DNA from: Phaeodactylum tricornutum CCAP 1055/1
Lineage: Eukaryota; Bacillariophyta; Bacillariophyceae; Surirellales; Neidiaceae
Reading direction: 5' to 3'
DNA: 37,193 nucleotides
Assembly: GCF_000150955.2 (NCBI RefSeq)
Contig: NW_002238030.1
Span: 1-37,193 of the forward strand
Part shown: positions 646 to 37,193 of the stretch, piece by piece
Position numbering within the stretch: position 1 is the first letter of the stretch
Layout of the letters: each line of letters starts with the position of its first letter
Notes under the pieces: model-generated
The model's input: only the letters and a program-made list of their open reading frames with translations
Told to the model about the DNA's origin: nothing
The model's database searches: none
Program-made: the position numbers and the translations under genes

Positions 646-1814
646 GTCGATTGATTATTCGAAAGAAATTACCAGCAAGGGTGTCTCTTTTCCTTGATGA
701 ATTGAGCAGAAGACAACATTGGTAATTTATAAGGATTCTGGTGTTTGGTCGATAAAGCTGTCAGGGAAATCTTCATTCGACAAGCACTGGCGGTCGCTAC
801 AGACGAGCAGTTTGCGAACGCGTAGGATCTCGAACCGCATTCTCTTCTTAAGCTCAAACACGACGGTGAAGGTACCTCTATCCCTGTAATAGATCCTTCT
901 AGGGTAAATGGAGGTATGGTAGTCGAATTGGTTTGCTCTGTGATGGGACTAATGACGAAAGTAGCTGGCATGAGCAGCAACAAGATGTCGCCATATCTTC
1001 TCATATGGTATCGAAGGACTCAAAGGTTAGGTTGAACAGCGTTTTTGGGTGTTCTTGAATAGCTCTATTTGTCCAGTGCTTTCATGTATCAATATTTACG
1101 TTGAGTTCCTCTTGATTTTTTTCAAAAAGACTGAAGCAATTTGCAGATCCACATCCTCCCATGTGTAGTCGAAATAAAGTGAGGCCTCGAGTATTGTTAC
1201 GACAACTCCAGACAGAGTCAAAACTGCCTCACAATCTTGCGTAGGATTTTAAATAAACCATTTACTTCTTATAAACATACATTTCCCGGGCAAAAACCAA
1301 TGCTTCACGTGAACTGTAGAAAATTTCCATTTGCAGCGAAAATTTCTACTTCGCCCACAGCCATATAATTCTCGCAACATTTTTTATGGTAGCACACATA
1401 TTGTGATGACTAAAAGTACCGGGATAATCTAACATAAAGTCCATTCCTTGTTTACAGTTCATGCAAATTGTGACCAGCGAACTTCCATCTTGATCCAGCC
1501 TGATTTCTCCGTATAAATGCCCAGAATTTCGGAGTTTCTTTCTATAGACCTTGGTTGGATTTCCAATTACGTTCACAATGACCCGTAAAAACTCCGTACA
1601 GTCAGAGTTAAATTTGTGCGGTATGATTTGAGATGGTTGTCTCGTGGGTCACATTTCTGATATTCCTGTTAATTGCAAATGAAAAATAGCTGGAAGCAGT
1701 GGTAGTGTTCAAAACGAATGACCCAAAGATTTCAAGGAAACCGCAAGATTGTCACAAAACAAGGCGACAAATCTACAAAACACACTCACGGTCAATAATC
1801 AATATCCAACACAA
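646..1814. other. Intergenic, no gene recognised
   Basis: This 1.17 kb stretch between the PDE relic and receptor copy A holds only short open frames on both strands with no recognisable motif. It should contain the promoter of copy A, but I see no sequence I can defend as a core promoter element. Confidence 0.5.
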
Positions 1815-2090
1815 ATGAACGTAAACGACTTCAACAAGGACTATTCCGACGATGATTCAGTATCGGTAGACCTATCTTCGACCGGAACAAATACTGAAAG
1901 TGATCGGCAGGCCAAGTCCGACGAACGCGACGAAACCAAGGAAGTCCAAAGATTGGCTGCTTCGGAGACGGCACACATTCGTTTCTGGCGTTTGGTGGTT
2001 GTGTCTTTGCTACTCATATCAGGTGCCGTGCTTTCAACGTTCACCTACGTTTTCCTTAATGGCGAAGAGAAAGACGACTACGTAGATGCT

Positions 2091-2176
2091 GTAAGTGTCG
2101 ATGGTTAGGCTATGCGTCGCATTTTCACTTTCTTCCGCCAAATTTAAAATCTCAGCAGATCCCCTTTTGACTCCAG
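2091..2176 (+). other. Copy A intron 1
   Basis: A GTAAGT donor follows the VDA codons and a CAG acceptor precedes the TAC TAC codons. It is phase 0 and 86 bp, at the same position as the first introns of B (7818-7908) and C (17442-17526). The intron sequences themselves are not similar. Confidence 0.8.
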
Positions 2177-3178
2177 TACTACCTATTTGCAAACACTGTC
2201 CGTGACATTACACGCTTTCGGGCGGGTAATATGTTTGAGGCCTACCAGGGACTAGGAGAAACGTTGACGGCACACGCGACCAACATGAACTTGACCTTTC
2301 CGTTTGTCTCGTTGCCGATGTTCGAAGTCGCGGGTCGACATACTTTAGCCCAATCGCGCAACGAACTTCTATTTTTTGCGCCGTTTGTCGCGGGTGACCG
2401 AAAAGAGGAATGGGAGCAATATGCTGTTGAGCATCAGGGGTGGCTTGATGAGGGCCGAAAGATTCGACTGGAAGCGGATCAGACCTTACAAGTATCATCC
2501 TTCATCGAAGGCCCTATCCCCACTCGGATTTTTGAGCTTTTAACGGCGGTAGGAGATCTTGATCTATCGCCACTGGGGCGTGACTATCTGGCAGACATCT
2601 CCTGTTCCTTTCACCTCTTCTCTCCAGAATTTCAACGTGCGGTCGTTTGAAAATACGGAATTTGTCATGGACACCATGCGACTATTGAAAAGTACGCTAT
2701 TGCAAACAACATGACATCCGATGAAAGATTTGTCGTCTCACATAGATAGTATTTGGCCAACAAAACAGACTCGGTCTTGACCTGGGTGGAGGACGCGTCA
2801 CGAACCTCAGGAGCAGTATGGAATGAGAAAGACCACGATGCCTTCCATGCTCAATTTGTAACAAGTACCGGTAGTGAGAGTCCTCATGATCGCCCGCATA
2901 CATCAATATACACACCAATTTTTGAGCAACTGGGGAATCGCAATTCCAACATTGTCGGATTTCTTGCGGGAATTACAGCTTTTGATGCCTACTTGGCTGA
3001 TCTGCTCCCCGATAAAGTGAGCGGAATCAATTCCATCTTGGAAAATACTTGCGGACAACAGTAAGTAAAAAAGAAAAGGGGCTACCATTTTGTCTGTGCA
3101 GCAACAATCAATGTATTGAAAAAGCCATATTGCATATTCTCCTACGAATTGACCGGAAACCGCGCGTTGTATCTCGGA

Positions 3179-5554
3179 GACGGTGATCGACACGAAACCG
3201 CCTTCAACCAATACGAAGTCGTCGTTCCCTTCAACGCCTATCGAGACCCCGAGCTCGCTGCCAACACGGACGGGCATTGCCGGTACTCTCTACACATCTA
3301 CCCCAGTCAGCAGTTTGCTCAGGGATACAAGTCCAGCCTTCCCATCGTCTTCACTTCCCTCGTGGCAGCCACCTTCTTCCTCATGGCTCTGACCTTCTTG
3401 GTCTACGACCGCTTCGTCCACCGCCGTAACATCAAAGTGGTTAATGCCGCTGCTCGATCTAACGCCATCGTGTCATCGCTGTTCCCTTCTAATGTCCGTG
3501 ATCGCTTGTTTGAAGATGCCAAGGCAAGAAGCGACGTCAACCAGGCCGCCCACTCTCGTCTCAAGACGTTCCTGCACAATGGTGACTCCTCTGATACCGC
3601 CATCACTGACGAGAATGCGCATCACAGTGACTTCTTCAAGACCAAGCCCATTGCTGAGCTGTTTCCCCATACCACCATCATGTTTGCAGATATCAGCGGC
3701 TTCACGGCATGGAGCTCGTCTCGAGAGCCGGCACAAGTCTTCCAGCTGCTGGAGACCCTGTACCACTCGTTCGACGAGACGGCCAAGAAGCGTCGTGTCT
3801 TCAAAGTCGAGACGGTCGGCGACTGCTACGTTGCCGTTGCTGGACTGCCCGATCCGCGAAAGGATCATGCCGTAGTCATGGCTCGATTTGCCAAGGACTG
3901 CATGCACCAGATGCACTCGCTGACAAGAAAGCTGGAAGTATCTCTAGGCCCGGACACGGCCGACTTGTCCCTACGAATTGGGTTACACAGCGGACCTGTG
4001 ACTGCCGGTGTCCTGCGCGGGGAGCGGTCTCGTTTTCAGCTCTTTGGAGACACCATGAACACGGCAGCAAGGATGGAAAGCAACGGAATTCGCGGTCGCA
4101 TTCAGATCTCGCAGGAGACGTCCGATCTGCTTGCAGATGCTGGCAAGACCCAGTGGTTCGTTGCACGCGAGGATACGATTGTGGCCAAGGGAAAGGGCGA
4201 GCTCAACACGTTCTGGCTTTCAGTGGGAGATGTGGGTAAGGGGAGGTCGACAACCGACACAACGCACAGTAGCGACGATGTTTTTGCGCCCAACAACTAC
4301 AACAGCTCTGTAGCGTTGGATGGTCTGATGACGACCAGTGCCGAGTCAGATCAGCAGGTCTACAACCTCGTTTCGAATAAGACCTCGCGTCTCATCGACT
4401 GGAACGTCGATGTACTATCGCGATTGATCAAACAAATCGTGGCGCGTCGCAAGGCCTCCAAGGTACCAAAGAAGGACTCGTCCAAGCAATACTTCTGTCC
4501 CGGCGACAACCGAGGAGCCGGGACCACGGTCCTGGACGAGGTGACGGAGATTCTGGCTCTGCCGGAGTTCGACGCGGATGCTGCTCGTCGCCAGCAGGAT
4601 CCTGAGAACATCGAGCTAGATGACAGTATCACGTCACAGCTGCAGCAGTACGTGTCCAATGTGTCTGCCATGTACCGGAACAACCCCTTCCACAACTTTG
4701 AGCACGCCTCGCACGTGACCATGTCAGTGGTGAAGCTGTTGTCCCGTATTGTGGCTCCCGTGGATGTGGTGGTGTCGGACGGGAAGAACCAGAAGCGGTC
4801 CTTCGCCTCCAAGCTACACGATCACACGTACGGCATCACGTCGGATCCTCTGACTCAGTTTGCTTGCGTCTTTTCGGCACTCATTCATGACGTCGACCAC
4901 AGTGGAGTTCCCAACGCGCAGCTAGTGAAGGAGAACAGTAAGATTGCTACATTCTACCAGGGGAAAAGTGTTGCCGAGCAGAACTCCGTGGATCTAGCTT
5001 GGGACCTGTTGCTAGACGACAGCTTCAAAGACCTACGAGCCGCCATCTTTGCCACGGACGTGGAGAAGGCCCGGTTCCGACAGCTGGTAGTCAACTCCGT
5101 CATGGCAACGGATATCATGGACCCGGATCTCAAGGCTATTCGTAACGCACGCTGGGAGAAGGCCTTTTCAGCCTTCCCTAATATGCAGGAAGACCTGAAA
5201 GACGTGACAAACCGCAAGGCGACGATTGTAATCGAGCACCTGATCCAGGCCTCCGATGTGGCACACACCATGCAGCACTGGCACATATACCGGAAGTGGA
5301 ATGAGCGACTGTTCCTGGAGCTCTACCAGGCCTACATAGCCGGTCGAGCAGAAAAGAGCCCGGAAACATTTTGGTACAAGGGCGAGCTGGGCTTTTTCGA
5401 CTTTTACATCATTCCACTGGCTATGAAGCTGAAGGAATGCGGTGTATTTGGAGTGTCGAGCGACGAGTATCTGAACTACGCGATGCGCAATCGCAAGGAA
5501 TGGGAAGACCGTGGTCAGGAAGTGGTGCGCGAAATGATGGAAAAGATCAAAGGT
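3179..5554 (+). repeat. Homogenised signalling tract, copy A
   Basis: These 2376 bp align to 8929-11304 (offset 5750) and 18522-20897 (offset 15343) with no insertion or deletion and only scattered base differences. The tract starts about 43 bp inside exon 4 and ends a few codons before the stop. Sequence on either side is far more divergent. It covers the last part of the ectodomain, TM2, the cyclase and the PDE. Confidence 0.9.
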
Positions 5555-5563
5555 GGGACTTGA

Positions 5564-7541
5564 AAGCTTTGGCAATGAAGTAGAAGCTGCAATGTCTTAT
5601 TATTTTTAATATATGGAAAATGTGCTTGTTGCGTTTTTTTGTGGTTTGGTAGTAGGTTGATGAGAATCCGCTTTTTCTGTTCTCATGATTTTCCTTTTAT
5701 CTTGTACCTGCCACTGAACTTGTATAAGATTGAAAATGGACTTGTGGACCAAGGCAATCATATGCGAGGCTCTTTCTGACTGGTGTGGCCTTCGTGTTTA
5801 TGTGCTGAGTAGCGACGCTCCATATGCGGTTTTACTTTACTCCCACCTTGGCATCGGAGTGAGTAGCAGTCTGTAGAGTTCCTGTAGAATGCATATATCC
5901 ATATCCTTGCATCCTTTTTTTACAGCACCAGTAGGGATCTGACTTCCTGTGATTATCCCCTTAACCTTCGCCTTCCATCAAAAAGCCATCACGTTGGTCC
6001 TCCATCAACTTGATATTGCCGTCGGTACCTCGATTTGGCTCGCGACGACAACGGCTGGGAAGGACGTTTTAGGAGCGTCACAGGGTGTGACGACCAGACC
6101 GGACATTCGTCAAGCTATTGTTAAGGGCACGTGGGAGGATGGGCTTACAGGGAGCGTTTTTCCGAAGCATGCTTCGGATATTTGATCGCTTCTACCCTTT
6201 TAGTGTGCGGTTGCTCGTCTCCTGTTAATGTAAGCGACTTGCGCCCATGCGGAACGGTGGGTTTAGCGACATGGCAACGTCCAATGAAATCATAGTCCAG
6301 TCATCGACTGCAGAAGAATGGGTTCCCTTGAACATATCAGATGACCGTAACACTAACATCATCCGTTCTGGAAAAGATAACAAGTATAGCAATCAAAGTA
6401 TTTAAAATATTCAACACGAGTTTCTTTCACTCTATGTCACTTAAAAGGCAAGCGTTGATGGCTCAAACTACAAACTGAGTGTGAGATCTTTCCTCGCCTC
6501 TGATATAAGAAGTATCGTACATTTCGATAAATTCGCGGGTTTATGTAGGTCATTAGACAGTGCAGAAACATAGACGTTCATTGCTTCAAATTGTAAAGGT
6601 GACTTGATCCAATCCCGTTTCAGTTTGGACTCTGCTAGTATGCACAGTCAAAACACATTTCGGACCCGTACGTCCGTTTTCTGGGAATCTCGAAGCCGGA
6701 TATCGGGATCCACATGACAAAAAGTAGAGCCAGCTGCTCCATATCTACTACGGCTCAATGGGCATGCCAAATAGTGGATTAGCAGACAGCTAAACAATAT
6801 ATAAAAGGCAGCTGCATATTGATCCATGGTAGCAAAACATTCCGGAAAAGACAAACTTTTCCGAGTGGGGCGTTTCGATTCGAAAGACAAGAAACGCAAA
6901 GTCTTTCTTTATGTATTCAGTTCACAAGACTACCTACTTCCTAACTACCGATGTGTGTTGGTTTCTTATTGTAAATGACCGGGTTTTTTTTTCGATAGAC
7001 AAAGAAAAGATAGTATTAGGGGTGGAATGACTTTCCTGTCAGATCGGAAATTTATGTGCTACCAGCTTCATGCTAATCTACAATTAGATCCTTACATTGC
7101 TGATCGTTTTACAATTATCGGACACATTTTGTTTTCGCTTGCCTGTCTCTTAAGGTAGTGTCGTGAACGAGGGAACAAAGTTCTCACAAAATTATCTGTA
7201 ACTGTAAGCTAAGTTGGTGGCAAGGAATGCCTCACCGTCTTTAACTGTGAATGCCTTGCGTTGTCTTGGCCCTTGACCAAATCCAATGACTCGCGGGGTC
7301 GCTTTTTTTATTCTAGCACGTCCAACTTATTGTTAAGTGTAAACACGGAATTCAAATCGTAGTTAATTTTAACTGAGACATAGGACATCAGTATGGACTT
7401 AGTGAGGCGGAAAGATCCGTAAAAGGGACCTACTCGTAGCACGGATCACCTGAAGCTCCAGAAAAAACCAAAACCGCCAAATTAATCGAAGAGCCGAGGC
7501 ATATCGCCGTAGGAAGCTTTCATTGACAATAAAAATTAATC
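5564..7541. other. Intergenic, no gene recognised
   Basis: This 2 kb spacer between copies A and B contains short open frames without recognisable motifs, for example 5949-6185 (78 aa), which I would not call a gene. It is not similar by eye to the spacers flanking the other copies. A perfect palindrome at 6161-6178 is listed separately. Confidence 0.5.
6161..6178. repeat. 18-bp perfect palindrome
   Basis: TCCGAAGCATGCTTCGGA equals its own reverse complement. It could form a small cruciform or bind a dimeric protein, but nothing nearby supports a function. Confidence 0.5.
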
Positions 7542-10500
7542 ATGAATCTACGCAGCACCCGCAACGATTTTCGTGACGATGGTTCAGTATCAGTAGACTT
7601 ATCCTCTACGGGAACCAATACCGAAAGTGACCCACAGTTCAAGCCCGACGAACGCGACGAAACCAAGGAAGTCCAAAGATTGGCTTCCTCTGAGACGGCA
7701 CACATTCGTTTCTGGCGCCTGGTAGTTGTGGCTTTGCTGCTCGTATCAGGTGCCGTGCTTTCGACGTTCACCTACGTTTTCCTTAATGGCGAAGAGAAGG
7801 ACGACTATGTCGATGCGGTAAGATCAATCGCCTTTAAGAGGATTGTTGCAGCTGCAATCATCACCCTTCCCTCTTGGACTCACAAAATTGTTGACCTATC
7901 GTTGCTAGTATTTCTTGTTTGCGAACACCATCCGTGATATTACCCGTTTTCGGGCCGAAAACATGTTTGAGGCCTTTCAGTCATTGGGGGAGTCGATTAC
8001 AGCTCACGCGATCGACCAGAATTTGACTTTTCCGTTTGTCTCTTTGCCCATGTTCGAAGTCGCGGGCCGCCACGCCCTATCGCAGTCGCGCACCGAAATT
8101 GTCTTTTACACTCCGTTCGTAACAGGGGATGAAAAGGAGGCGTGGGAGCGGTATGCATGGGAGAACCAAGGTTGGCTTGAAGAGAGTCGCAAGATCAGAC
8201 TAGATAGTGACAAAACGTTGCAAGGAACCTCCTTTATCGAAGCAACTATTCCCTCTCAGATCTTTGAAAGTACAACAGAAACAGCTGCGAACGTGGATAT
8301 TTCTCCTCCAGGTCGGGACTTTTATTCGCCGATTTGGCAGAGTTCACCCGTGCCATTCTTTCCGTCTCTTCAAAATTTTAACCTTCGATCATTTGAAAAC
8401 ACTGAATTCGTCATGAAAACCATGCGGCTGCTAAAAGGTACGAGCTTTGTTACTTGAGAATGGTTGACTGTGAAGAATCGTGATCTCACATAATGCGTCC
8501 ACTATTTTGAATAGACTCTGTCATGTCATGGGTTGAAGATGCATCACTGATTTCGGGGTCTGTGTGGAATGAAAAAGATCATGACGCGTTTCACGCTCAG
8601 TTCGTTACAGGCAGCCCGGATGAGAGCACCTCATTACGACCCCATGCAACCATTTACAACCCAGTACACGAGCAGCTCGGGAACCGCGACTCTGAAATTG
8701 TGGGCTTCGTAACGGGTGTCATTGCCTTTGACGCATACTTGGCTGATCTACTCCCCGATACAGTCAGAGGCATTTACTCAGTGTTGAGGAACACATGTGG
8801 ACAACAGTAAGTTCCGAAATGACATCATGTTTTATCCCTCATATATTTTACGACAATCAACTCAGTAACAACTCTCATATTTCAGATTTTCCTACGAGCT
8901 AACCGGAAATCGCGCTGTGTACCTTGGCGACGGTGATCGACACGAAACCGCCTTCAACCAATACGAAGTCGTCGTTCCCTTCAACGCCTATCGAGACCCC
9001 GAGCTCGCTGCCAACACGGACGGGCATTGCCGGTACTCTCTACACATCTACCCCAGTCAGCAGTTTGCTCAGGGATACAAGTCCAGCCTTCCCATCGTCT
9101 TCACTTCCCTCGTGGCAGCCACCTTCTTCCTCATGGCTCTGACCTTCTTGGTCTACGACCGCTTCGTCCACCGCCGTAACATCAAAGTGGTTAATGCCGC
9201 TGCTCGATCTAACGCTATCGTATCATCGCTGTTCCCTTCTAATGTCCGTGATCGCTTGTTTGAAGATGCCAAGGCAAGAAGCGACGTCAACCAGGCCGCC
9301 CACTCTCGTCTCAAGACGTTCCTGCACAATGGTGACTCCTCTGATACCGCCATCACTGACGACAATGCGCATCACAGTGACTTCTTCAAGACCAAGCCCA
9401 TTGCTGAGCTGTTTCCCCATACCACCATCATGTTTGCAGATATCAGCGGCTTCACGGCATGGAGCTCGTCTCGAGAGCCGGCACAAGTCTTCCAGCTGCT
9501 GGAGACCCTGTACCACTCGTTCGACGAGACGGCCAAGAAGCGTCGTGTCTTCAAAGTCGAGACGGTCGGCGACTGCTACGTTGCCGTTGCTGGACTGCCC
9601 GATCCGCGAAAGGATCATGCCGTAGTCATGGCTCGATTTGCCAAGGACTGCATGCACCAGATGCACTCGCTGACAAGAAAGCTGGAAGTATCTCTAGGCC
9701 CGGACACGGCCGACTTGTCCCTACGAATTGGGTTACACAGCGGACCCGTGACTGCCGGTGTCCTGCGCGGGGAGCGGTCTCGTTTTCAGCTCTTTGGAGA
9801 CACCATGAACACGGCAGCAAGGATGGAAAGCAACGGAATTCGCGGCCGCATTCAAATCTCGCAGGAGACGTCCGATCTGCTTGCAGATGCTGGCAAGACC
9901 CAGTGGTTCGTTGCACGCGAGGATACGATTGTGGCCAAGGGAAAGGGCGAGCTCAACACGTTCTGGCTTTCAGTGGGAGATGTGGGTAAGGGGAGGTCGA
10001 CAACCGACACAACGCACAGTAGCGACGATGTTTTTGCGCCCAACAACTACAACAGCTCTGTAGCGTTGGATGGTCTGATGACGACCAGTGCCGAGTCAGA
10101 TCAGCAGGTCTACAACCTCGTTTCGAATAAGACCTCGCGTCTCATCGACTGGAACGTCGATGTACTATCGCGATTGATCAAACAAATCGTGGCGCGTCGC
10201 AAGGCCTCCAAGGTACCAAAGAAGGACTCGTCCAAGCAATACTTCTGTCCCGGCGACAACCGAGGAGCCGGGACCACGGTCCTGGACGAGGTGACGGAGA
10301 TTCTGGCTCTGCCGGAGTTCGACGCGGACGCTGCTCGTCGCCAGCAGGATCCTGAGAACATCGAGCTAGATGACAGTATCATGTCACAGCTGCAGCAGTA
10401 CGTGTCCAATGTGTCTGCCATGTACCGGAACAACCCCTTCCACAACTTTGAGCACGCCTCGCACGTGACCATGTCAGTGGTAAAGCTGTTGTCCCGTATT

Positions 10501-11322
10501 GTGGCTCCCGTGGATGTGGTGGTGTCGGACGGGAAGAACCAGAAGCGGTCCTTCGCCTCCAAGCTACACGATCACACGTACGGCATCACGTCGGATCCTC
10601 TGACTCAGTTTGCTTGCGTCTTTTCGGCACTCATTCATGACGTCGACCACAGTGGAGTTCCCAACGCGCAGCTAGTGAAGGAGAACAGTAAGATTGCTAC
10701 ATTCTACCAGGGGAAAAGTGTTGCCGAGCAGAACTCCGTGGATCTAGCTTGGGACCTGTTGCTAGACGACAGCTTCAAAGACCTGCGAGCCGCCATCTTT
10801 GCCACGGACGTGGAGAAGGCCCGGTTCCGACAGCTGGTAGTCAACTCAGTCATGGCAACGGATATCATGGACCCGGATCTCAAGGCTATTCGTAACGCAC
10901 GCTGGGAGAAGGCCTTTTCAGCCTCCCCAAATATGCAGGAAGACCTGAAAGACATGACAAACCGCAAGGCGACGATTGTAATCGAGCACCTGATCCAGGC
11001 CTCCGATGTGGCACACACCATGCAGCACTGGCACATATACCGGAAGTGGAATGAGCGACTGTTCCTGGAGCTGTACCAGGCCTACATAGCCGGTCGAGCA
11101 GAAAAGAGCCCGGAAACATTTTGGTACAAGGGCGAGCTGGGCTTTTTCGACTTCTACATCATTCCACTGGCTATGAAGCTGAAGGAATGCGGTGTATTTG
11201 GAGTGTCGAGCGACGAGTATCTGAACTACGCGATGCGCAATCGCAAGGAATGGGAAGACCGTGGTCAGGAAGTGGTGCGCGAAATGATGGAAAAGATCAA
11301 AGGTAGGGTGAAGCGTTATTGA
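7542..11322 (+). CDS. Receptor-type nucleotidyl cyclase / phosphodiesterase, copy B
   Basis: Exons 7542-7817, 7909-8437, 8515-8806 and 8886-11322 give 1177 aa; introns are 70-95 bp with GT-AG ends. The order is a cytosolic acidic N-terminus (1-57), TM1 (about 58-80), an ectodomain (about 81-433) of no family I can name, TM2 (about 434-456) and a class III cyclase (about 540-700). The cyclase has metal Asp551 and Asp595 and transition-state Asn674/Arg678. A PDEase-I domain (about 870-1160) has His885/His889 (HNFEH), His950/Asp951/His954 (HDVDH) and Asp1073. It would make a cyclic nucleotide and degrade it in the same chain, gated by an external signal. Cyclase Glu591 favours GTP, but the partner position normally Cys is Gln667, and the PDE glutamine-switch position is Glu1116. 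cGMP is therefore the likeliest product but not certain. Bifunctional GC/PDE genes respond to sex pheromone in the diatom Seminavis robusta. Confidence 0.9.
8929..11304 (+). repeat. Homogenised signalling tract, copy B
   Basis: This is the second member of the 2376-bp near-identical set (see 3179-5554 and 18522-20897). Against copy C I see about four amino-acid differences by eye over the tract: Asp/Glu in the pre-cyclase linker, Ser/Leu and Met/Thr in the inter-domain linker and early PDE region, and Met/Leu late in the PDE. Synonymous sites are also nearly all identical. Confidence 0.9.
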
Positions 11323-11419
11323 ATTGTCTAAGAAATGCAATGCAATGAGGCAAGGAAGGAGTTTGAAGTGATGAAGAGAGAAATCAATATTCGAGATGAG
11401 CAGGGATGAAAGTTGCACT
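11323..11419 (+). other. 3' flank of copy B before the gap
   Basis: This purine-rich stretch follows the stop codon of copy B. No polyadenylation signal is defensible. Confidence 0.4.
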
Positions 11420-11875
11420 NNNNNNNNNNNNNNNNNNNNNNNNNNNNNNNNNNNNNNNNNNNNNNNNNNNNNNNNNNNNNNNNNNNNNNNNNNNNNNNNN
11501 NNNNNNNNNNNNNNNNNNNNNNNNNNNNNNNNNNNNNNNNNNNNNNNNNNNNNNNNNNNNNNNNNNNNNNNNNNNNNNNNNNNNNNNNNNNNNNNNNNNN
11601 NNNNNNNNNNNNNNNNNNNNNNNNNNNNNNNNNNNNNNNNNNNNNNNNNNNNNNNNNNNNNNNNNNNNNNNNNNNNNNNNNNNNNNNNNNNNNNNNNNNN
11701 NNNNNNNNNNNNNNNNNNNNNNNNNNNNNNNNNNNNNNNNNNNNNNNNNNNNNNNNNNNNNNNNNNNNNNNNNNNNNNNNNNNNNNNNNNNNNNNNNNNN
11801 NNNNNNNNNNNNNNNNNNNNNNNNNNNNNNNNNNNNNNNNNNNNNNNNNNNNNNNNNNNNNNNNNNNNNNNNNNN
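11420..11875. other. Assembly gap (456 N)
   Basis: A continuous run of unknown bases. Open frames crossing it are artefacts. It hides the left boundary of the Copia element that follows. Confidence 0.99.
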
Positions 11876-14540
11876 ACTATGCTAGTTGAATGTTCCAACA
11901 ACAATAGCTATACCAAAACATGATCATATTGGTGCTGGTCAAATAATTGGACAAAAGAAAGATCAAGATGGTGATCCAATTGGGAGGTTGAATCCTGATC
12001 CAGTTTTGGACACTCGTATCTTGGAAGTTCAATTTCCAGACGGTGATGTACAGGAATACGGAGCTAACGTTATTGCTGAGCATCTTTATTCACAGGTTGA
12101 TGACAAGGGTCATCATTATCTTTTATTTGTTGATCACCGAAAGGACGGATCGGCTGTTGCTGCCGACGGACCTGTATTATACAGACAAACGTGGTGTGAA
12201 ACAAATGCGTCAAACAACGAAAGGTTGGCAACTTTTACTTCAAAGGAAAGACGGATCGCCTACATGGATTCCCTTGAAAGATCTGAAAGAGTTGAATCCT
12301 GTTGATGTCGCCGAATATATTATTGCAAACAAGTAAGTCCATAAACCAGCTTTTGCCTGGTGGGTACCGGGCGTATTACAGAAACAAGACAGAATCATTT
12401 CGGCGGTAAAGGCCAGATACCTCAAAAGGACTCACAAATTCGGTATTTGTATGCCGAAGTCAGTCAAAGAAGCTCTCGAAATTGATTGCTATACTAACAC
12501 TTCTATATGGTTGGATGCAATCAGAAAAGAGATGAAAAACGTTATGCCAGCGTTCAAAGTTCTCGAGCCCAATGCGTCGAAACCAGTTGGACACACTTGG
12601 ATACCTAGTCATATGATCTTTGATATCAAAATGGACTTCACTCGCAAAGCCAGATTCGTCGCCGGGGGACACGTTACAGATCCGCCGAGTTTGATTACTT
12701 ATGCTAGTGTTGTTTCGAGGGACAGTGTTTGAATTGCGTTACTTATTGCAGCATTGAATTTGATGCAAATACTTGATGCTGATGCACAAAATGCATATTT
12801 GAATGCCCCAGTTCGAGAAAAGGTATATACAACATGTGGTCCAGAATTTGGGATTTCGACAGAAGGTTGTTATGCAATTATTGTTCAAGTGTTGTGTGGT
12901 TTGAAGTCAAGTGGAGCTGCATGGCGTGCTCACTTAACTGCAACAATGGAAGAATTGATGTTTACCTCTTGTATTGCAGATCCAGATGTTTGGTTAAGAC
13001 CATTTCAGAATGAAGGTGGTCTCGAATATTATGAGTATGTGCTTATTTACACTGATGATTTCCTATGTATCAGTGATGATCCAAAGAAAATCTTGGATAC
13101 TATTGGAAAACATTTCAAGCTGCAGTCAGAATCAATTAAGATACCGGAGACATATATGGGAGCGAATCTTGGACATTTTTCACTTCCCAATAAGCCAGAT
13201 AAACCGCGATGGTCTATGAGTTCGACAAATTACGTCAAACAAGCTGTCGCAAACGTTGAGAAAGATTTGAGCGAAATCAAAAGAGGTTTGCCTAACAAAG
13301 CGTCATTGCCAATGTCGACAAAGTATCGACCGGAACTTGATGTTTCTCCTGTGTTGAATGCAGAGCGTGCTAACTATTTTCAGTCTCAGATTGGTGTTTT
13401 GAGATGGGCAGTTGAAATTGGTTGTATTGATATATGTGTGAAGTATCTATGCTTTCATCATTTCTCGCAATGCCATGAGAAGGACACTTGAGTGCTGTTC
13501 TTCATATTTTTGCTTATTTGAAATCTCACAACAGGTCTCAACTCGTCTTTGATGATTCTTATGCTGACATTGACAACCATTTTATTGATGGTGCAGACTG
13601 GACGGATTTTTATGGTAATGTGAAAGAACCTATTCCGCTAAATGCTCCGAAGCCACGTGGTAGGGCTGTGGAGATTACTGCTTTTGTTGACGCTGACCAT
13701 GCTGGAGACAAAGTCACTTGTCGTTCTCGAACAGGTCTTTTGATTTATCTCAATCGTGCTCCGATTATGTGGTTTTCGAAGTGTCAGAATTCAGTTGAAA
13801 CGTCTTCGTTTGGAAGTGAGTTTGTTGCATTAAAGATTGCTAAGGAGATGATACAGGGTTTAAGGTATAAGTTACGGATGATGGGTATTCCGATTGATGG
13901 TCCGGCTAGAGTTCTGTGCGACAATATGTCAGTGGTTCACAATACTACAGCGCCGGAGTCTGTGTTGAAGAAGAAGAGTATTCTATTGCATATCACTTTG
14001 TACGAGAGAATGTCGCAATGGGAGTCATCAAGATTGCTTATGAAACGTCGGAGACAAACTTAGCCAATGCACTAACAAAGGTTCAGTCAGCTCCAGTACG
14101 ACAGAATCTTATGCGTCAAATTTTATATTGATTCATGTGAAGAAGAGTTTGCCGACTTTTTCGTTTCGATGAAGCCAGTGTCGGAACAAATTGCATTTGC
14201 AATACTACCTGTCATTGCATGCAGTGTCGAAGTTTTATTTTACAAGTTGTGGATCCTTTTTTTCCCATGGTGGTTTTGAGGGGACACATCTCTCCATGTC
14301 CATATCTATATTTATGGTTTCGATGTGTGGGGACTAGAAAACCCGTACGTCAAGCAGTACATGAGGGGTTCATATCCCTAAGTCTATCTGACAAGTCTAT
14401 AATCTTATGTTTTTACGCCTTTGATTGTCTACGAAAGTATGCGGGATCTTTCGGGTCTTTAGACGATTCTAGCCCGTTATTGTTGCAGTTTTCTAGTTTG
14501 GAGGCCGAAATAGCGGTTTTCCTCCTACGAACTCAATTTT
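11876..14540 (+). mobile_element. Ty1/Copia-type LTR retrotransposon relic
   Basis: This is a broken element on the + strand, read as a fossil. Recognisable parts in order are a linker region typical of diatom Copia elements (NPDPVLDTR, QFPDGDV), reverse transcriptase with YTDDF in the catalytic block, RNase H with VDADHAGD, and a closing segment. A candidate 3' LTR begins near 14179. Gag, protease and integrase are not visible; they are either absent or hidden in or beyond the gap. The reading is interrupted several times (roughly four to six breaks), so it cannot be active by itself. The family order (RT after integrase, Copia-type RNase H) excludes Gypsy. Age cannot be dated because no second LTR is available; the preserved motifs suggest moderate age. 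Confidence 0.88.
14179..14540 (+). repeat. Candidate 3' LTR of the Copia relic
   Basis: It begins TGTCGGAACA, the usual style of a Copia LTR start, shortly after the end of the RNase H region. The right end is not defined because the matching 5' LTR is not in view. The limit given is where MULE-related sequence starts. Confidence 0.45.
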
Positions 14541-14555
14541 GAGGAAATTCACTAA

Positions 14556-15126
14556 AGGGGATGGGAAAAGGTGGAAAACTCTCAAAAGGGGACAGAACGT
14601 GTTCAGTCTAAGTATCATCATTTGGCGCTCGTATTTTAAAAAGTATTCAAACTATACCCCAAAAAATTGTGCCGGATGCCAACCGTTGCCGAAAGCTACG
14701 GGAAGCAGCTAACAGTAAACAACGCAGCTGAGCGAATGAATAGTGTCATTCAAGATCTACGGCATCAGCTAATCCTTGATTTACTTGTTGGTCTCTCCAG
14801 ATGGACAATTGGAAAAAATTTCGAGTGCAGGGAGAAATCCAAGAAATGGATTGAATCGGGGTGTAGGCTTACAGAATTTGCACAAGCGCACCACATCAAA
14901 TGCATGGAATTTTTGTCATGCAACGTCATGTTTTCGTTACTCACCATAAAGGGACTCAATGGAAAGCATACGTTTCACACTTAAGCTTATGCTCGGTCTA
15001 AAGTAGATGTTCAGGTGGATGGATTCCAGATTCAATGCCCATGCAAGTACAAGGAGGAGTATAGACAAGCCCGTTTCCAAGCTATGGCTCTGATTCACCA
15101 TGCCCAACTAGCACCTAAACAAAATT
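14556..15126 (+). mobile_element. MULE (Mutator-like) transposase C-terminal relic
   Basis: One frame can be followed from about 14556 to a stop at 15124-15126, with internal stops at 14637-14639 and 14982-14984. It contains WEKVENSQKGTERVQSKYHH, then TVNNAAERMNSVIQDLR, which matches the conserved NNxxEsxNsvixxLR block of MULE transposases. It ends with CPCKYKEEYRQA, the first half of a SWIM zinc finger (CxC...CxH). The second Cys and His appear as Arg and Gln (ARFQAMALI), so the finger is broken. The DDE catalytic part is not visible upstream, where sequence becomes Copia LTR-like. I see no terminal inverted repeats. It is a dead 3' fragment of a DNA transposon. A related fragment lies at 37118-37193. 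Confidence 0.65.
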
Positions 15127-15922
15127 AGTATTTTATATTTAGGCGGTCTCTCCGAAAAGCATGTCGATGACTGAATAAAATAAAAATACCAAACACAATT
15201 TTCAAATAGTGCAATTTTCGCCCCTCCTCATCCGAGATAGTGCATTTCCTCTAGATTTAATTTGTACTAACGGTAAAAGCACTGGCTCGTTATAGCTTGC
15301 TTCAACATGATTTCTTAATCTTCCGTTCTTACAGTTAATGATTTCCACGCATTTTATTGGAATGCTCTGCTGTGACAAGTCAGTGAATGTCATGGAAAAC
15401 CAATCAAAGCCTTGACAACAAATCAAACTTTAAGTAGCTTTCGTCTTCGCAAAAATGAATAGCAGAATCATCAAAAGTTACATAGTTGTTTGCAGGGCGG
15501 ACTGCGGGTCCATTGAATTTGCTACATAGCTAAAAGGTTGGCTCTACAGAGACGAGAATGTCAATCACAGAAAGTGTCATTATGAGCATCTCTTTCCAGC
15601 GGCAACCAGAATGATGCCACAGTTGCCTAGATTTGCCAAATTTGGATGGCTCTGCAATGACCAACAATGCCCTCTCAACCCTCTCTGTTACAATATACAC
15701 CAATGTACACCGTATGGACAGAAGCGCTGTTAGGAACAGAGCCTGGTAAACAAGAGAGGGCGTTATTACAAACGACTGGCAATACACCTAAGGGACTTAG
15801 GGACTGTAAAACTCTACTTGTTGGCAACGCTCCCCTTGGGTTAGGCAGCGGATACGAGGACCTATGCGTAAACTAGCAATGCGGATCAAAGAACTTATAA
15901 AACAACGATAGAAGATTAGATT
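15127..15922. other. Intergenic, no gene recognised
   Basis: AT-rich spacer with short open frames on both strands (for example 15530-15787 on the - strand) and no recognisable domain. Confidence 0.5.
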
Positions 15923-16674
15923 CTACAAACTAGTGCCTTTTGTCAGATCATATCCAAACTTGACTGCAGTCCTGGCAACTTCACCAACTAAACCTGAATC
16001 TTCCATGCTCACCATAGTATCCATATAATACAAAATCCGTTCTTGCATACTTATCAAGGAATTGTAAGTATCTCTTGTAACACACATGGTATGAAAATTG
16101 GGTCTTGTCAATTTGCATCCGTTTCCCTTGTGTTTCCATCCAAATGACTCTTTCCGTTGAATCCAATTTATTCCTTGGAGTTTTGGTGCAACTGAAGTCT
16201 CCATACTAACCAAGAGCCTTCTCAAAGTAAGTAGGGAATACTGCAAATCTGTGCCCATGTATCTTCTCACTATGCCATAATTACATAGGAATGCATATAA
16301 TAAGGCCAATTCCACTGACATGTACACAACTTGCAGTAAACATGTATACACTTGATTTCTGCTTGTGACACACTTGTTTTGAGATAAATGTCTCAAAGAC
16401 ACACGGGACGGGTATATACCGTGAGACTCTCGACAAACACAGAGACAATCAGCATATTCTTTCTGCCGTTTTGGTGGGCTGCCTCTACCTGATGCAACAA
16501 ATCAACTGGAAAATGGCCAATGCTGCGCGCTTTGACTGCCATTTCGGTGTTCTCGCCTGAAAGCGCCAAAGAAAGAAGAAAATCAGTGAATATATGAGCT
16601 CCCAAGGTGGAAAGAGAACAAGGAATCGTTGCGGAACTTAACCGATGTTGCCATCTTACATGAAAATTATTCAT
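15923..16674 (-). pseudogene. Decayed reverse-strand gene of unknown family
   Basis: A protein-like reading runs from about 16674 to 15923 in successive frames. The first frame (16674-16393) includes EMAVKARSIGHFPVDLLHQV and MLIVSVFVESLTVY. The second (16402 onward) includes RHLSQNKCVTSRNQ, YMGTDLQYSLLTLRRLL, SVAPKLQGINWIQRKE and FGWKHKGNGCKL. Around 16000-16100 the better reading slips to a third frame with FLDKYARTDFVLYGYYGEHG, then returns to DSGLVGEVARTAVKFGYDL. The even composition and phrase-like motifs suggest former coding sequence broken by about three frameshifts. I cannot name the family. It could be a duplicated host gene or the coding part of a non-autonomous DNA element. Confidence 0.45.
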
Positions 16675-17162
16675 CTTTCGGCTGTTCTACGTCTCCTGCC
16701 GCATCGATATGATCATCCTCCAGTGATGCGAGCACTAGCAGTAAGCCAGTTCTAGATACCGAGAAAAAAATATGATGTTGATTTATGTATCTCGGACATT
16801 TGCTTTAGCTGATGACACCCTCTCAGAAGAGTTCTGAAATCGCTGTGTGGGTGTGAGCGATATTGGCCAAACATGTTGAACAAAGCGCTAGAGTATAGTG
16901 AGCAAATTTTTCTCTTCGTTGCCAAGACTGTCGGGTCATTGCTCTTCTTTGCAATCTTTTTGAGGAAAAAATGACCACACTATTGACCTCATGTGTTGTC
17001 ACATCACGTTTTGGTATATTTAGAAAGGCGAAATGATCGGTAAACATCGACGGCCTGACCTCGATGTGTCATTCTACGACCCAATAAACCGCCATAAAAT
17101 AAATTGAAATCTATGTATGGTCACAAAAGCCACACTGATCTGAAGACTTGCAAGAATTTTGT
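16675..17162. other. Upstream region of receptor copy C
   Basis: About 490 bp between the decayed gene and the ATG of copy C. It must hold the promoter of C if C is expressed. No motif is shared by eye with the regions upstream of A or B. Confidence 0.4.
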
Positions 17163-20100
17163 ATGATGGAAAAGAGTAGTACCCGCAGCGATGGTCGTGA
17201 CGATGATTTGATTTCGGTTCAGCCGTCTTCGAGCGGAACCAACACCGAATTCGACCAAAACACCTTACAAGATGAACGCGATGAAACCAAGGAAGTTCAC
17301 AGATTGGCTGCTTCGGAAACTGCACATATTCGTTTTTGGCGATTGGTGGTCGTGGCTTTACTGCTCGTATCAGGTGCCGTGCTTTCTACGTTTACTCACA
17401 TATTCCTCAAGGGCGAAGAAAAAGATGACTACGTCGACGCGGTAAGACCCGACTGCAGAGCACACATCTTGAACTGCATTGCACATACCACAACTCAACG
17501 TCTTTCCGCGGATGCATCTTTGATAGTATTACCTATTTGCGAATACTGTTCATGATGTTACAAGGTTTCGTGTGGAGAACATGTTCGAGGCCTTCCAGGG
17601 ATTGGCAGAAACGTTGACAGCGCACGCGATTGTCAAGAACCTGACCTTTCCGTTCGTCTCGTTGCCTATGTTCGAAGTTGCGGGCCGACATACTTTAGCC
17701 CAATCGCGCAACGAACTTTTATTTTTTACGCCATTTGTCACAGGGGACCAGAAAGAGGAATGGGAGGGCTATGCGTGGGAGAATCAGTGGTGGCTCGGCG
17801 AAGGCCGCAGTATTAGATTAGAAAACGACCAAACTTTGCAAACAACGTCTTTCCTTGAAGGAAACATTACACCTCAGATTTTTGAGTTTGCGACTGTTTC
17901 TCCTCCGGGACGTGATATCTATTCCCCCGTTTGGCAGATGTCGCCTGTTCCATTTTCCCCCTCTATTCAAAATTTTGACTTCAGGTCATCAGAGACTAAC
18001 GCATTTGTCATGGACGCCATGCAGATTGTGAAAGGTACGATATTTTGTAGAACCTTGTCAGGATAGTACCAGTCGTCTAACATGGCTACGCCTTGGCGAG
18101 ATAGACTCGGTCATGTCCAGGGCTGCCAACACAGCAAGAACCTCCGGATTGGTTTGGAGTGAGAGAGATCATAACGTCTTCCATGATCAATTTGTTACTG
18201 GCACCGGGGATGAGAGTCCTCACGAGCGCCCTCATGCCGTCCTGCATACGCCCGTCTACGAGCAACTGGGAAATCGTGATTCTAAAATAGTGGGGTCACT
18301 TGTCAGCACCATCGCTTTTGATGCTTCCTTTGCTGATCTGCTTCCCGACAAAGTGAGGGGTATATACTCCGTCCTAAAGAACAGTTGTGGTCAACAGTAA
18401 GTTCCGACGAATGACAGCATACTTCATCCTTCATTTATGCGACGTCAGCAATGGAAACTAACAAAAGACATATTGCAGATTTTCCTACGAATTGACCGGA
18501 AACCGCGCGGTGTATCTTGGCGACGGTGATCGACACGAAACCGCCTTCAACCAATACGAAGTCGTCGTTCCCTTCAACGCCTATCGAGACCCCGAGCTCG
18601 CTGCCAACACGGACGGGCATTGCCGGTACTCTCTACACATCTACCCCAGTCAGCAGTTTGCTCAGGGATACAAGTCCAGCCTTCCCATCGTCTTCACTTC
18701 CCTCGTGGCAGCCACCTTCTTCCTCATGGCTCTGACCTTCTTGGTCTACGATCGCTTCGTCCACCGCCGTAACATCAAAGTGGTTAATGCCGCTGCTCGA
18801 TCTAACGCTATCGTGTCATCGCTGTTCCCTTCTAATGTCCGTGATCGCTTGTTTGAAGATGCCAAGGCAAGAAGCGACGTCAACCAGGCCGCCCACTCTC
18901 GTCTCAAGACGTTCCTGCACAATGGTGACTCCTCTGATACCGCCATCACTGACGAGAATGCGCATCACAGTGACTTCTTCAAGACCAAGCCCATTGCTGA
19001 GCTGTTTCCCCATACCACCATCATGTTTGCAGATATCAGCGGCTTCACGGCATGGAGCTCGTCTCGAGAGCCGGCACAAGTCTTCCAGCTGCTGGAGACC
19101 CTGTACCACTCGTTCGACGAGACGGCCAAGAAGCGTCGTGTCTTCAAAGTCGAGACGGTCGGCGACTGCTACGTTGCCGTTGCTGGACTGCCCGATCCGC
19201 GAAAGGATCATGCCGTAGTCATGGCTCGATTTGCCAAGGACTGCATGCACCAGATGCACTCGCTGACAAGAAAGCTGGAAGTATCTCTAGGCCCGGACAC
19301 GGCCGACTTGTCCCTACGAATTGGGTTACACAGCGGACCCGTGACTGCCGGTGTCCTGCGCGGGGAGCGGTCTCGTTTTCAGCTCTTTGGAGACACCATG
19401 AACACGGCAGCAAGGATGGAAAGCAACGGAATTCGCGGTCGCATTCAGATCTCGCAGGAGACGTCCGATCTGCTTGCAGATGCTGGCAAGACCCAGTGGT
19501 TCGTTGCACGCGAGGATACGATTGTGGCCAAGGGAAAGGGCGAGCTCAACACGTTCTGGCTTTCTGTGGGAGATGTGGGTAAGGGGAGGTCGACAACCGA
19601 CACAACGCACAGTAGCGACGATGTTTTTGCGCCCAACAACTACAACAGCTCTGTAGCGTTGGATGGTCTGATGACGACCAGTGCCGAGTCAGATCAGCAG
19701 GTCTACAACCTCGTTTCGAATAAGACCTCGCGTCTCATCGACTGGAACGTCGATGTACTATCGCGATTGATCAAACAAATCGTGGCGCGTCGCAAGGCCT
19801 CCAAGGTACCAAAGAAGGACTTGTCCAAGCAATACTTCTGTCCCGGCGACAACCGAGGAGCCGGGACCACGGTCCTGGACGAGGTGACGGAGATTCTGGC
19901 TCTGCCGGAGTTCGACGCGGACGCTGCTCGTCGCCAGCAGGATCCTGAGAACATCGAGCTAGATGACAGCATCACGTCACAGCTGCAGCAGTACGTGTCC
20001 AATGTGTCTGCCATGTACCGGAACAACCCCTTCCACAACTTTGAGCACGCCTCGCACGTGACCATGTCAGTGGTAAAGCTGTTGTCCCGTATTGTGGCTC

Positions 20101-20912
20101 CCGTGGATGTGGTGGTGTCGGACGGGAAGAACCAGAAGCGGTCCTTCGCCTCCAAGCTACACGATCACACGTACGGCATCACGTCGGATCCTCTGACTCA
20201 GTTTGCTTGCGTCTTTTCGGCACTCATTCATGACGTCGACCACAGTGGAGTTCCCAACGCGCAGCTAGTGAAGGAGAACAGTAAGATTGCTACATTCTAC
20301 CAGGGGAAAAGTGTTGCCGAGCAGAACTCCGTGGATCTAGCTTGGGACCTGTTGCTAGACGACAGCTTCAAAGACTTGCGAGCCGCCATCTTTGCCACGG
20401 ACGTGGAGAAGGCCCGGTTCCGACAGCTGGTAGTCAACTCCGTCATGGCAACGGATATCATGGACCCGGATCTCAAGGCTATTCGTAACGCACGCTGGGA
20501 GAAGGCCTTTTCAGCCTCCCCAAATATGCAGGAAGACCTGAAAGACTTGACAAACCGCAAGGCGACGATTGTAATCGAGCACCTGATCCAGGCCTCCGAT
20601 GTGGCACACACCATGCAGCACTGGCACATATACCGGAAGTGGAATGAGCGACTGTTCCTGGAGCTGTACCAGGCCTACATAGCCGGTCGAGCAGAAAAGA
20701 GCCCGGAAACATTTTGGTACAAGGGCGAGCTGGGCTTTTTCGACTTTTACATCATTCCACTGGCTATGAAGCTGAAGGAATGCGGTGTATTTGGAGTGTC
20801 GAGCGACGAGTATCTGAACTACGCGATGCGCAATCGCAAGGAATGGGAAGACCGTGGTCAGGAAGTGGTGCGCGAAATGATGGAAAAGATCAAAGGTGGG
20901 GCAAAGGGTTGA
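17163..20912 (+). CDS. Receptor-type nucleotidyl cyclase / phosphodiesterase, copy C
   Basis: Exons 17163-17441, 17527-18034, 18105-18396 and 18479-20912 give 1170 aa, with intron positions and phases identical to copy B. The ATG at 17163 is preferred because the frame extends upstream only to a TTG; a second ATG follows at 17166. The N-terminal cytosolic motif DERDETKEV and TM1 (around FWRLVVVALLLVSG) are kept almost unchanged, while the ectodomain differs substantially from B. Examples are SRAANTARTSG versus SWVEDASLISG and the loop before the LADLLPD-like segment (FADLLPD here). Exon 4 carries the same cyclase and PDE residues as B: FADIS and GDCY aspartates, E...Q purine pair, NTAAR, HNFEH, HDVDH, KGELGFFDF. 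The role should match B with a different ligand or affinity. It is separated from B by 5.8 kb of transposon debris and gap, yet its signalling exon is nearly identical. Confidence 0.9.
18522..20897 (+). repeat. Homogenised signalling tract, copy C
   Basis: This is the third member of the 2376-bp set. The 5' limit is GACGGTGATCGACACG, shared exactly with A and B. The 3' limit is AAAGATCAAAGGT, after which the three genes use different last codons (GT, RVKRY and GAKG tails in A, B and C). Confidence 0.9.
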
Positions 20913-32140: not shown

Positions 32141-33486
32141 GATTGAATGGTTGCTTTTTAGATCATGAAGGTCAGTCAAAAGTGATAGTTTAGCATGTAA
32201 GAATTTTTTTGAGATCTACCACCTTTCAGTTTTCGGAAGAATTAGAGTCATCTATTCTGACGTATGCCATATATCCTTGAACCATTCCTCGTTGTCGCAG
32301 TGATCGGCAGAGAAACAAGGACCCACTGCGGAACGCATTTTTGTATAAGACTTTTCGGACTAATATTAAACGAAGCGATAGCAGATTTCGCTTTTTGTAT
32401 TGATTCAAGTTGAAAAAAATTGACTCCTTCAAGAATATTTGTACGATCAGCTGTATAACAAAAGCGATGAACAATATATATAGCAACTTCAATGCTGTCG
32501 TCTAGAGTGTAAGAAGAGAGTCCCTTTGCGTAAAGCCCACATTCGGCCAGCTTCGGTGTTGTCCAGGCCGTAAATTCCTGAAAATCCACATCGCGGTTAT
32601 TCATGTTTTATCACATCAGTCATAAGTCATAATTAATTTCTGTTTATATAGCATACCTTGACAGAGCTCTTTCTTAGTATACGACTGTTGTTCTCCAGAC
32701 CCCTTGATTTCTATTCCAAACAGAATATCGAGAGGGGCACGATTCACCATAACTTGATCCCTTCAAGTCCAGACCCGGCAATAAACATAAATGACAGAGT
32801 GCCATTGTCGAGATTAGGATCCATATTCTTCTTTGCAATATTGCGGTGAAGTTTTTTCTGTGGCGAGAGTTATTTCCGCGAAGTCGTATTAAGTTTCGTA
32901 GTTATCTCCTTCTAGTTTGCGGTTGATTCTGATCGGATTTTATCAAAATTTTGATGCGATTCAATTTCTCCGTTTAACGAAATATGGATTTGATTCCAAT
33001 AGCATTTATAAGTGACCAAAACTCGATATTCTATGGTCACCTTTACCCTGTCCCGGAGAAGACGATGGAACAAACGGGTCATAGTCAGAACCATCGCGCT
33101 CGAATTCCTGGTCATGCGAATGTCCACAATCAAAAGTGTAGAAGGCCATCCTCATTGTTAATAGCTCCGTCGGCCGCTGAGTCTTCGCTTGTCAACACGC
33201 GAAGGAAGTGCCACATCGGATTTCGCGGTCGGTCAACAAGCAATGGATTGCCAAAGTAATTGATGTAACACTAACATGACGAAACGGATGAGATGATAGG
33301 TGACCGTTCCCTGGTATGTTTTGCGATAAAACATATTTTAGAAGGAATCCAGAATCCTATGAAAGCGAAACATGTCTCCATGCTTTTTCTCGCGTTGTAC
33401 AACGATTTCGTGACGCGCAGCACAGGTTTTTGGCGCAGTGATGTTAACACAATCGTACCAAATAGTTTCCCCATTTGCTCGAAAAG
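32141..33486. other. Intergenic, one doubtful small ORF
   Basis: About 1.35 kb. The only frame of note is 32248-32604 on the - strand (118 aa from an ATG), with no recognisable domain. It may be a spurious frame or a 5' exon of the neighbouring TPR-like gene. The rest holds nothing I can identify. It must include the promoter of the dehydratase-like gene at 33487. Confidence 0.4.
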
Positions 33487-37107: not shown

Positions 37108-37117
37108 GAAAATACGC

Positions 37118-37193
37118 TTAAGGAGATGGGAAAAGGTGAAAAACTCGCTAAAGGGGACAGAACGTGTTCTCTCTAAGTAGCTTCATTTGCTGC
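37118..37193 (+). mobile_element. Second MULE fragment at the window edge
   Basis: This segment is similar in sequence and frame to 14559-14634. Both read W-E-K-V followed by N-S-x-K-G-T-E-R-V and an L/Q-S-K block, sharing GGGGACAGAACGTGTT exactly. It is cut off by the end of the window, so the rest of the element may lie to the right. It starts about 10 bp beyond the transporter coding frame. Confidence 0.55.

Follow-up and report, generated by a model that had tools for sequence, protein, structure and literature searches.

A homogenised catalytic exon beneath old, divergent sensors in a tandem array of predicted receptor-type cyclase/phosphodiesterase genes of Phaeodactylum tricornutum

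Background

How does a tandem gene family come to share one long exon that is almost identical even at its silent sites, when the adjoining exons of the same genes differ strongly? The question is raised by a 37,193 bp contig of the diatom Phaeodactylum tricornutum CCAP 1055/1 (NW_002238030.1, here C54), the whole of which was analysed and is referred to as the window. It carries three tandem copies, A, B and C, of a gene predicted to belong to the diatom receptor-type guanylyl cyclase/phosphodiesterases (GC/PDE), with two membrane spans, a cyclase and a phosphodiesterase (PDE) in one chain; exons 1-3 encode most of the sensor and exon 4 the catalytic part. A preliminary description, made from the letters of the window alone, ascribed the likeness of exon 4 to ectopic gene conversion acting on three receptor genes with diversifying ectodomains. 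The explanation favoured here, with a probability of roughly 0.85, is that the catalytic exon of this array evolves in concert through gene conversion or unequal crossing-over, and that old sensors escape the process.

Identification of a homogenised tract

The homogenised tract is 2,376 bp long in each of A, B and C and aligns with zero indels, the copies differing only at scattered sites (A-B 16, A-C 14, B-C 13), as had been described. Differences per 100-column window number 0-3 within the tract and 10-44 upstream of it, the sensor parts being approximately 70% identical, and similarity between the three copies is lost downstream, after the stop codon; the reported strong divergence of exons 1-3, introns and flanks is thus evident on both sides. 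A GENECONV-like permutation scan, a type of test that the preliminary description had called for, was run with 2,000 permutations on 1,213 polymorphic columns from A, B, C and an intact paralogue on another contig, C14. The tract was the best fragment for the pairs AB, AC and BC (in copy-A coordinates, 3179-5553 for A-B and 3179-5557 for A-C), with scores of 360-382 against permutation maxima of 30.5-33.1, such that 0/2,000 permutations reached the score in each case. Best fragments involving C14 scored 5-7.5 in the same scan and were given no weight, whether the short sensor fragment of C-C14 (score 7.5, reached in 8/2,000 permutations) or those of A-C14 (51/2,000) and B-C14 (596/2,000).

The breakpoints had been characterised as sharp and shared. 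Their positions are indeed common to the copies, since the first 43 bp of exon 4 precede the tract (8886 to 8929 in B, 18479 to 18522 in C, on gene models with GT..AG introns), which ends 2 (A), 5 (B) or 4 (C) codons before the stop. The 5' edge is softer than proposed, however, with the last 42 bp before the tract differing at 4/42 (A-C), 6/42 (B-C) and 10/42 (A-B) sites.

In exon 4, the synonymous divergence (dS) separating A, B and C from one another is 0.027-0.040; that separating them from the C14 gene, across the same part of the protein, is 1.24-1.27. Silent sites of exon 4 are therefore free to change, and those of the array copies have been reset, which upholds the earlier judgement that purifying selection is an insufficient explanation for the tract. 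Extreme purifying selection on the DNA itself, arising from an overlapping signal, RNA structure or codon use, might draw on the greater constraint on exon 4, as nonsynonymous divergence (dN) from C14 is 0.070-0.075 there and 0.135-0.264 in the sensor; the silent divergence of the C14 gene rules it out unless such selection is special to the array, making it extremely improbable.

Age and constraint of the sensor exons

Among A, B and C, dS in exons 1-3 is 0.49-1.67 or saturated across nine comparisons, exceeding 1 in 8/9, and dN is 0.11-0.24. If whole genes had duplicated recently and diversifying selection had then driven the sensors rapidly apart, the sensors would be expected to differ far more than exon 4 in both protein and DNA, as they do. 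Yet sensor dS exceeds dN and the introns have diverged too, and as selection on amino acids can neither raise dS nor drive introns apart, this history is ruled out unless dS has been overestimated more than 10-fold; it is hardly credible. When exons 1-3 of A, B, C and the C14 gene were compared, the ratio of dN to dS (omega), averaged over each exon, was 0.09-0.22 in the 12/18 comparisons with finite dS, with dN of 0.18-0.25 in the remaining 6/18, for which dS was saturated. The sensors are old and constrained, being under purifying selection wherever omega could be computed. The phrase 'diversifying ectodomains' is consequently not sustained by these values, and diversifying selection on the sensors is ruled out as an average over exons.

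The tract contains 36 variable sites when a fourth full-length copy, D, found on contig C29 (most likely chromosome 29), is included. Only 9/36 are nonsynonymous, against approximately 77% expected for random changes, although purifying selection on D's own exon 4 is inseparable from recent exchange because D may be a recombinant.

Exchange within the tract

If the similarity of exon 4 reflected one recent replacement, a single sequence having overwritten this exon in three older genes simultaneously without any exchange thereafter, divergence should be alike in all three pairs, as the 13-16 differing sites per pair are. Three lines of evidence stand against such a single event, which is considered unlikely. 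Firstly, four tract sites split A, B, C and D 2:2, and all four gametes occur in 4/6 pairs of these sites, implying recombination inside the tract. Secondly, a metagenome protein, P0002, has the tail and the Leu434 of C but the Phe666 and Val676 of A (residues numbered within the tract), although P0002 may itself be an assembly chimera. Thirdly, a patchwork is found in a second, related array on contigs C55-C57, which appears from its sequence to have undergone similar exchange. On C55, 1,916 bp of the catalytic exon are 97.9% identical between copies a and b. C57, an allele of copy a, differs from it at 144/1,017 sensor-side positions, yet equals copy b across 199 bp in which copy a differs at 8 sites. 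In copy b (C55:20001-26752), the sequence that precedes part of exon 3 is unrelated, and approximately 235 bp around the second membrane span are missing, as they are from C56 (1-10000), with a frame of approximately 710 aa kept; copy b is thus a partial duplicate rather than an exact repeat of the pattern in the window; the upstream part of the C56 copy lies off its contig.

Base composition offers a further hint of concerted evolution. At third positions of exon 4, copy A has G or C where C14 has A or T at 171 sites and the reverse at 114 (p 0.0009), a test in which A, B and C are not independent of one another, whereas no such bias in third-position GC content (GC3) relative to C14 was found in exons 1-3 (p 0.25-1.0). 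This excess gives no more than a hint of GC-biased conversion.

A fourth copy in the allelic region

Copy D adjoins sequence allelic to gene A: the left end of C54 (16-5557) aligns with C29:328483-333502 at 96.0-98.6% identity. D has no exon 1, window positions 1587-2103 being absent from the C29 allele, and has an extra in-frame stop. It therefore allowed, for the one allele available, the comparison of allelic and paralogous clustering that the preliminary description had suggested. In the sensor (1,035 columns), 132 sites group A with D and B with C, against 3 for AB|CD and 1 for AC|BD; the corresponding counts in the tract (2,376 columns) are 0, 2 and 2. Likewise, trees of the sensor unite A and D with 100/100 support, while this grouping is rejected for the tract by the approximately unbiased (AU) test (p 0.0216), A being nearer to B (16 differences) and C (14) than to its own allele (28). 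Sensor and tract thus have conflicting genealogies, and this half of the expectation stood. The other half, that exon 4 should cluster by contig, did not, as a clade of A, B and C apart from D was also rejected for the tract (AU p 0.0297), and homogenisation within the contig alone is therefore not demonstrated.

Polarisation by C14 assigns 12/15 of the differences private to D to changes on D's own branch, so its distance from the other copies is partly the product of a long branch. Polarised sites in the tract support A+B+C (2), B+C+D (2), C+D (2), B+D (1), A+C (1) and A+D (0), a mixture on account of which exchange also seems to have occurred between haplotypes. At the 3' side of the tract, D differs from B at 0/115 positions, from A at 37/76 and from C at 57/98. 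D hence combines A's 5' flank with B's 3' flank, and could be either a hybrid formed by unequal crossing-over or a mis-joined assembly, perhaps one made within the second haplotype. A simple history of one crossover inside the tract is not demonstrated, as the 16 sites at which A and B differ (D equals B at 10, A at 5 and neither at 1) have no single switch point.

A one-base difference just upstream of D's exon 4 (C29:331081-333517) creates an in-frame ATG, at which the deposited protein P0001 (816 aa) starts, making it a possible sensorless protein composed of a transmembrane segment, cyclase and PDE.

Several of these observations temper the case for continuing exchange. The variable sites of the tract are few, at 36, and the four-gamete signal comes from four of them, at which recurrent mutation is possible. 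For the tract, A+D is rejected at a modest level of significance, and the rejection of A+B+C there runs counter to a purely local process. Furthermore, A and D look like an ordinary pair of alleles, in that their divergence in the tract (28/2,376) is similar to that upstream (12/1,069). The hybrid structure of D could also have arisen during assembly, if two copies were joined through the repeat, and C54 is unplaced, with a gap beside copy B.

Reliability of the assembly

These last two points bear on a wider alternative, that the tract is an artefact of a Sanger-era, unplaced contig in which the reads of one true exon 4 were reused, or those of several copies mixed. A 2.4-kb repeat exceeds the length of a Sanger read, and the middle of the tract could therefore be mis-sorted between copies. 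The assembly comprises 27.45 Mb in 88 contigs, the reference being reported to consist of 33 scaffolds at chromosome level and 55 unplaced ones, C54 most likely among the latter, and to be a haplotype mosaic; 38/55 unplaced scaffolds were positioned by a long-read study, but gaps in these 'bottom-drawer' sequences remained, as they had no obvious homology to long-read contigs (PMC8147415, as far as its accessible text goes).

Against an artefact, the copies are not identical, differing at 13-16 sites per pair, and the outer 500 bp of the tract, which a single read can link to diverged flanking sequence, have roughly the homogeneity of the middle, with 3 and 6 differences in the first and the last 500 bp, respectively, for A-B, 2 and 4 for A-C, and 3 and 3 for B-C. 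Nor was the end of D built from the reads of B, as the two differ at 8 sites in the last 500 bp. P0002, an independent metagenome protein, has the tail of C, and the second array shows similar exchange, albeit in the same assembly. An artefactual origin is on this evidence improbable, and assembly collapse of the tract ends in particular is unlikely, although copy order and linkage across the tract are not proven.

Gene structure and predicted proteins

The coordinates of the tract copies, gene models and neighbouring features are listed in Table 1. B and C are intact four-exon genes encoding proteins of 1,177 aa and 1,170 aa, respectively. By contrast, exon 2 of gene A lacks 11 bp at approximately 2583 that B, C and C14 retain, a deletion that shifts the frame, and intron 3 of the gene has lost its acceptor, with AT in place of the AG found in the other three. 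Both lesions are present in D on C29, making sequencing error an unlikely cause. To judge from these lesions, A does not qualify as an intact receptor gene, and the earlier count of three receptor genes is reduced to two; the exon 4 reading frame is nevertheless open in all four copies.

Table 1. Features of the cyclase/phosphodiesterase array on C54 (window coordinates)
Feature	Position	Strand	Basis
Homogenised tract, copy A	3179..5554	+	pairwise differences, permutation scan, site patterns
Homogenised tract, copy B	8929..11304	+	pairwise differences, permutation scan, site patterns
Homogenised tract, copy C	18522..20897	+	pairwise differences, permutation scan, site patterns
Gene A exon 1: cytosolic N-terminus and first transmembrane segment	1815..2090	+	frame, homology to B, C and the C14 gene
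Gene A exon 2: ectodomain	2177..2691	+	alignment of A, B, C, D and C14; three-frame translations
Gene A exon 3: ectodomain	2769..3060	+	
Gene A intron 3: lost 3' splice acceptor	3134..3135	+	alignment, raw flanks
Gene A exon 4: last ectodomain piece, second transmembrane segment, class III cyclase, PDE; open reading frame intact	3136..5563	+	
Gene B exon 1	7542..7817	+	
Gene B exon 2: ectodomain	7909..8437	+	
Gene B exon 3: ectodomain	8515..8806	+	
Gene B exon 4: second transmembrane segment, cyclase, PDE	8886..11322	+	
Gene B 3' flank up to the gap; D identical over 115 aligned bases from tract end to gap	11323..11419	+	
Gap of 456 N directly 3' of gene B	11420..11875	.	
Copia-type retroelement remnant between B and C	12063..14355	+	RVT_2 (PF07727) match in 12733-13491
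Gene C exon 1	17163..17441	+	
Gene C exon 2: ectodomain	17527..18034	+	
Gene C exon 3: ectodomain	18105..18396	+	
Gene C exon 4: second transmembrane segment, cyclase, PDE	18479..20912	+	

Window positions 3065-5563 encode, in the same chain, a class III nucleotide cyclase domain (PF00211; 165.5 bits, E 1.3e-48) and a class I PDE domain (PF00233; 100.5 bits, E 1.5e-28). Hydropathy peaks of B at residues 61-79 (2.22) and 436-454 (2.30) correspond to two membrane spans flanking the ectodomain; a weaker third peak at 330-348 (1.80) is without explanation. A glutamate of the guanylyl cyclase type before the VGD motif of exon 4, along with a glutamine where animal guanylyl cyclases have cysteine, would presumably indicate a preference for GTP. 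Exon 2 of A, B and C gave no Pfam match, and a profile search against solved structures returned only cyclases and PDEs in the best 60 of 190 matches, none of them for the ectodomain. CHASE was detected among eight homologues scanned in P0014 (27.2, cut-off 25) and, below the cut-off, in P0035 (22.3), with no match in the other six; the ectodomain may therefore be CHASE-like. Full-length relatives occur in several diatoms, such as Seminavis P0014, which is 45% identical over 99% of B. A near-identical block was not found at the protein level in five same-species pairs (Epithemia P0007/P0008 and P0007/P0012, Nitzschia sp. P0018/P0022 and P0022/P0025, and Seminavis P0014/P0035), among which the highest 100-column window reached 88%; the database, being clustered at 90%, would conceal near-identical pairs in other diatoms.

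Proposed mode of evolution

The attribution to ectopic gene conversion made in the preliminary description, extended to unequal crossing-over, is supported by the dS contrast, the permutation test, the conflict between sensor and tract, the four-gamete test and the GC3 excess. Homologous recombination as the agent, the reason for the position of the edges and a signalling role for the proteins are inferences. The genes, arrayed near a chromosome end, would have duplicated long ago, leaving their sensor exons near or at synonymous saturation. The chain predicted for a full gene begins with a cytosolic N-terminus, crosses the membrane, forms an ectodomain (exons 2-3 and the start of exon 4), crosses the membrane again and continues into the cyclase and then the PDE. 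Neighbouring copies and different haplotypes would continually reset one another's exon 4 by gene conversion and unequal crossing-over, since this exon, being long, intron-free and strongly constrained, has stayed similar enough between copies to pair; sensor exons would have escaped because they are short, evolve faster and are split by diverged introns. The tract edges could then simply be the edges of the block able to pair, delimited by intron 3 upstream and non-homologous 3' flanks downstream, a passive account that invokes no special design. In this process copy D would resemble the deletion product of one unequal crossover.

A more speculative suggestion, to which low probability is attached, is that the end of chromosome 29 acts as a sensor-shuffling locus. 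The homogenised output cassette of second span, cyclase and PDE might serve as a permanent crossover platform through which old sensors are gained, lost and re-linked between haplotypes with the enzyme unharmed, giving each clone its own set of receptors, possibly for recognition of mates, kin or partners.

Reads, probes and guide RNAs directed at exon 4 hardly discriminate these genes, and as copy number and sensor content differ between haplotypes, expression, knock-out and single nucleotide polymorphism studies need care. The locus also constitutes a natural test of the limit that homology decay sets on exchange, in that exon 4 is exchanged and the approximately 70% identical sensors and the 81% identical off-array paralogue are not.

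Comparison with other gene families

The closest precedent found, by analogy, would be the clustered protocadherins of fugu and other teleosts, likewise tandem receptors with 3' regions more than 99% identical and divergent 5' ectodomains, a pattern attributed to regional gene conversion with raised GC3 (PMC1852091, accessible text). Unlike those of the protocadherins, the homogenised part in P. tricornutum is mostly an enzyme and the sensors are without diversifying selection on average. Moreover, the variable exons of protocadherin alpha and gamma are spliced to shared constant exons, whereas each P. tricornutum gene has its own exon 4; a shared constant exon is rejected here, since B and C, like their paralogue on C14, each comprise all four exons.

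Among diatoms, a Seminavis robusta GC/PDE has the same domain order, with two spans N-terminal to the cyclase and PDE, and its level rises after pheromone treatment (PMC4726125, in the part available). The case in P. tricornutum is distinguished from it by being a short array with a homogenised catalytic exon. Cyclases are also among the tandem duplicates of Seminavis, in which a cGMP-biosynthesis family responds to many conditions (PMC7335047, accessible portion). The array provides a quantified case of interlocus recombination in a diatom nuclear gene family, and in one implicated in the pheromone response of another diatom. The trypanosome receptor adenylate cyclases, ESAG4/GRESAG4, have one membrane span and are not known to carry a PDE in the same chain. 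They too form a multigene family with a variable ectodomain and a conserved class III cyclase, and neither 'gene conversion' nor 'recombination' was found in the main text, so far as accessible, of the work consulted (PMC6027212).

Identical diatom paralogues, SuSIT1 and SuSIT2, have been reported from Synedra, with gene conversion suggested as one possibility but with no tract analysis, in a 2018 paper stating that non-crossover gene conversion had not been found in diatoms (PMC6114903, on the text available). No prior report of the present array was found in the literature, as covered by titles and the starts of abstracts with subscription journals mostly outside coverage, and the main text of a paper on 17 P. 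tricornutum accessions contains neither 'cyclase' nor 'gene conversion' (PMC10833087). The process is a known one, seen in other receptor families, of which this is a new example in a group with little documentation found.

Genomic context

The array is distal on its chromosome, because the allelic stretch of C29 precedes 40,844 N (C29:342735-383578) and a telomere, the contig ending in TTAGGG repeats. For window positions 21.2-31.2 kb, the only other copy among the matches listed in the assembly is a 133-bp match at 71%; the haplotypes are therefore strongly different here, or the second copy is hidden in the gap. Strong haplotype variation is also described in the available part of a telomere-to-telomere paper (PMC9266582).

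Just upstream of gene A lies a degenerate PDE-type gene remnant (71-561) with frameshifts and stops, matching B at 47% over 158 aa by tblastn and having an allele at C29 near 328.5 kb. The Copia-type remnant between B and C has a 71% similar copy on C29. A short dispersed repeat of approximately 85 bp, at 14536-14624 and 37101-37189, recurs in at least 42 further places on many contigs at 78-96% identity, several times as inverted pairs, and resembles a mobile element. A 94% match in inverted orientation links 15685-16426 to C56:18445-19181.

The right half of the contig (21341-34647) contains genes for a class I/II aminotransferase, a tetratricopeptide repeat (TPR) protein, an alpha/beta hydrolase and a GDA1/CD39 nucleoside phosphatase, second copies of which are not among the assembly matches listed. 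At its end, a gene for a pyridoxal phosphate (PLP)-dependent enzyme (33466-34647) matches C55 in part, at 78%. Finally, a sugar-transporter-like gene region (34731-37035) is 91% identical to C55:13863-16153, which suggests a single hypervariable region with C54 and C55 as its haplotypes.

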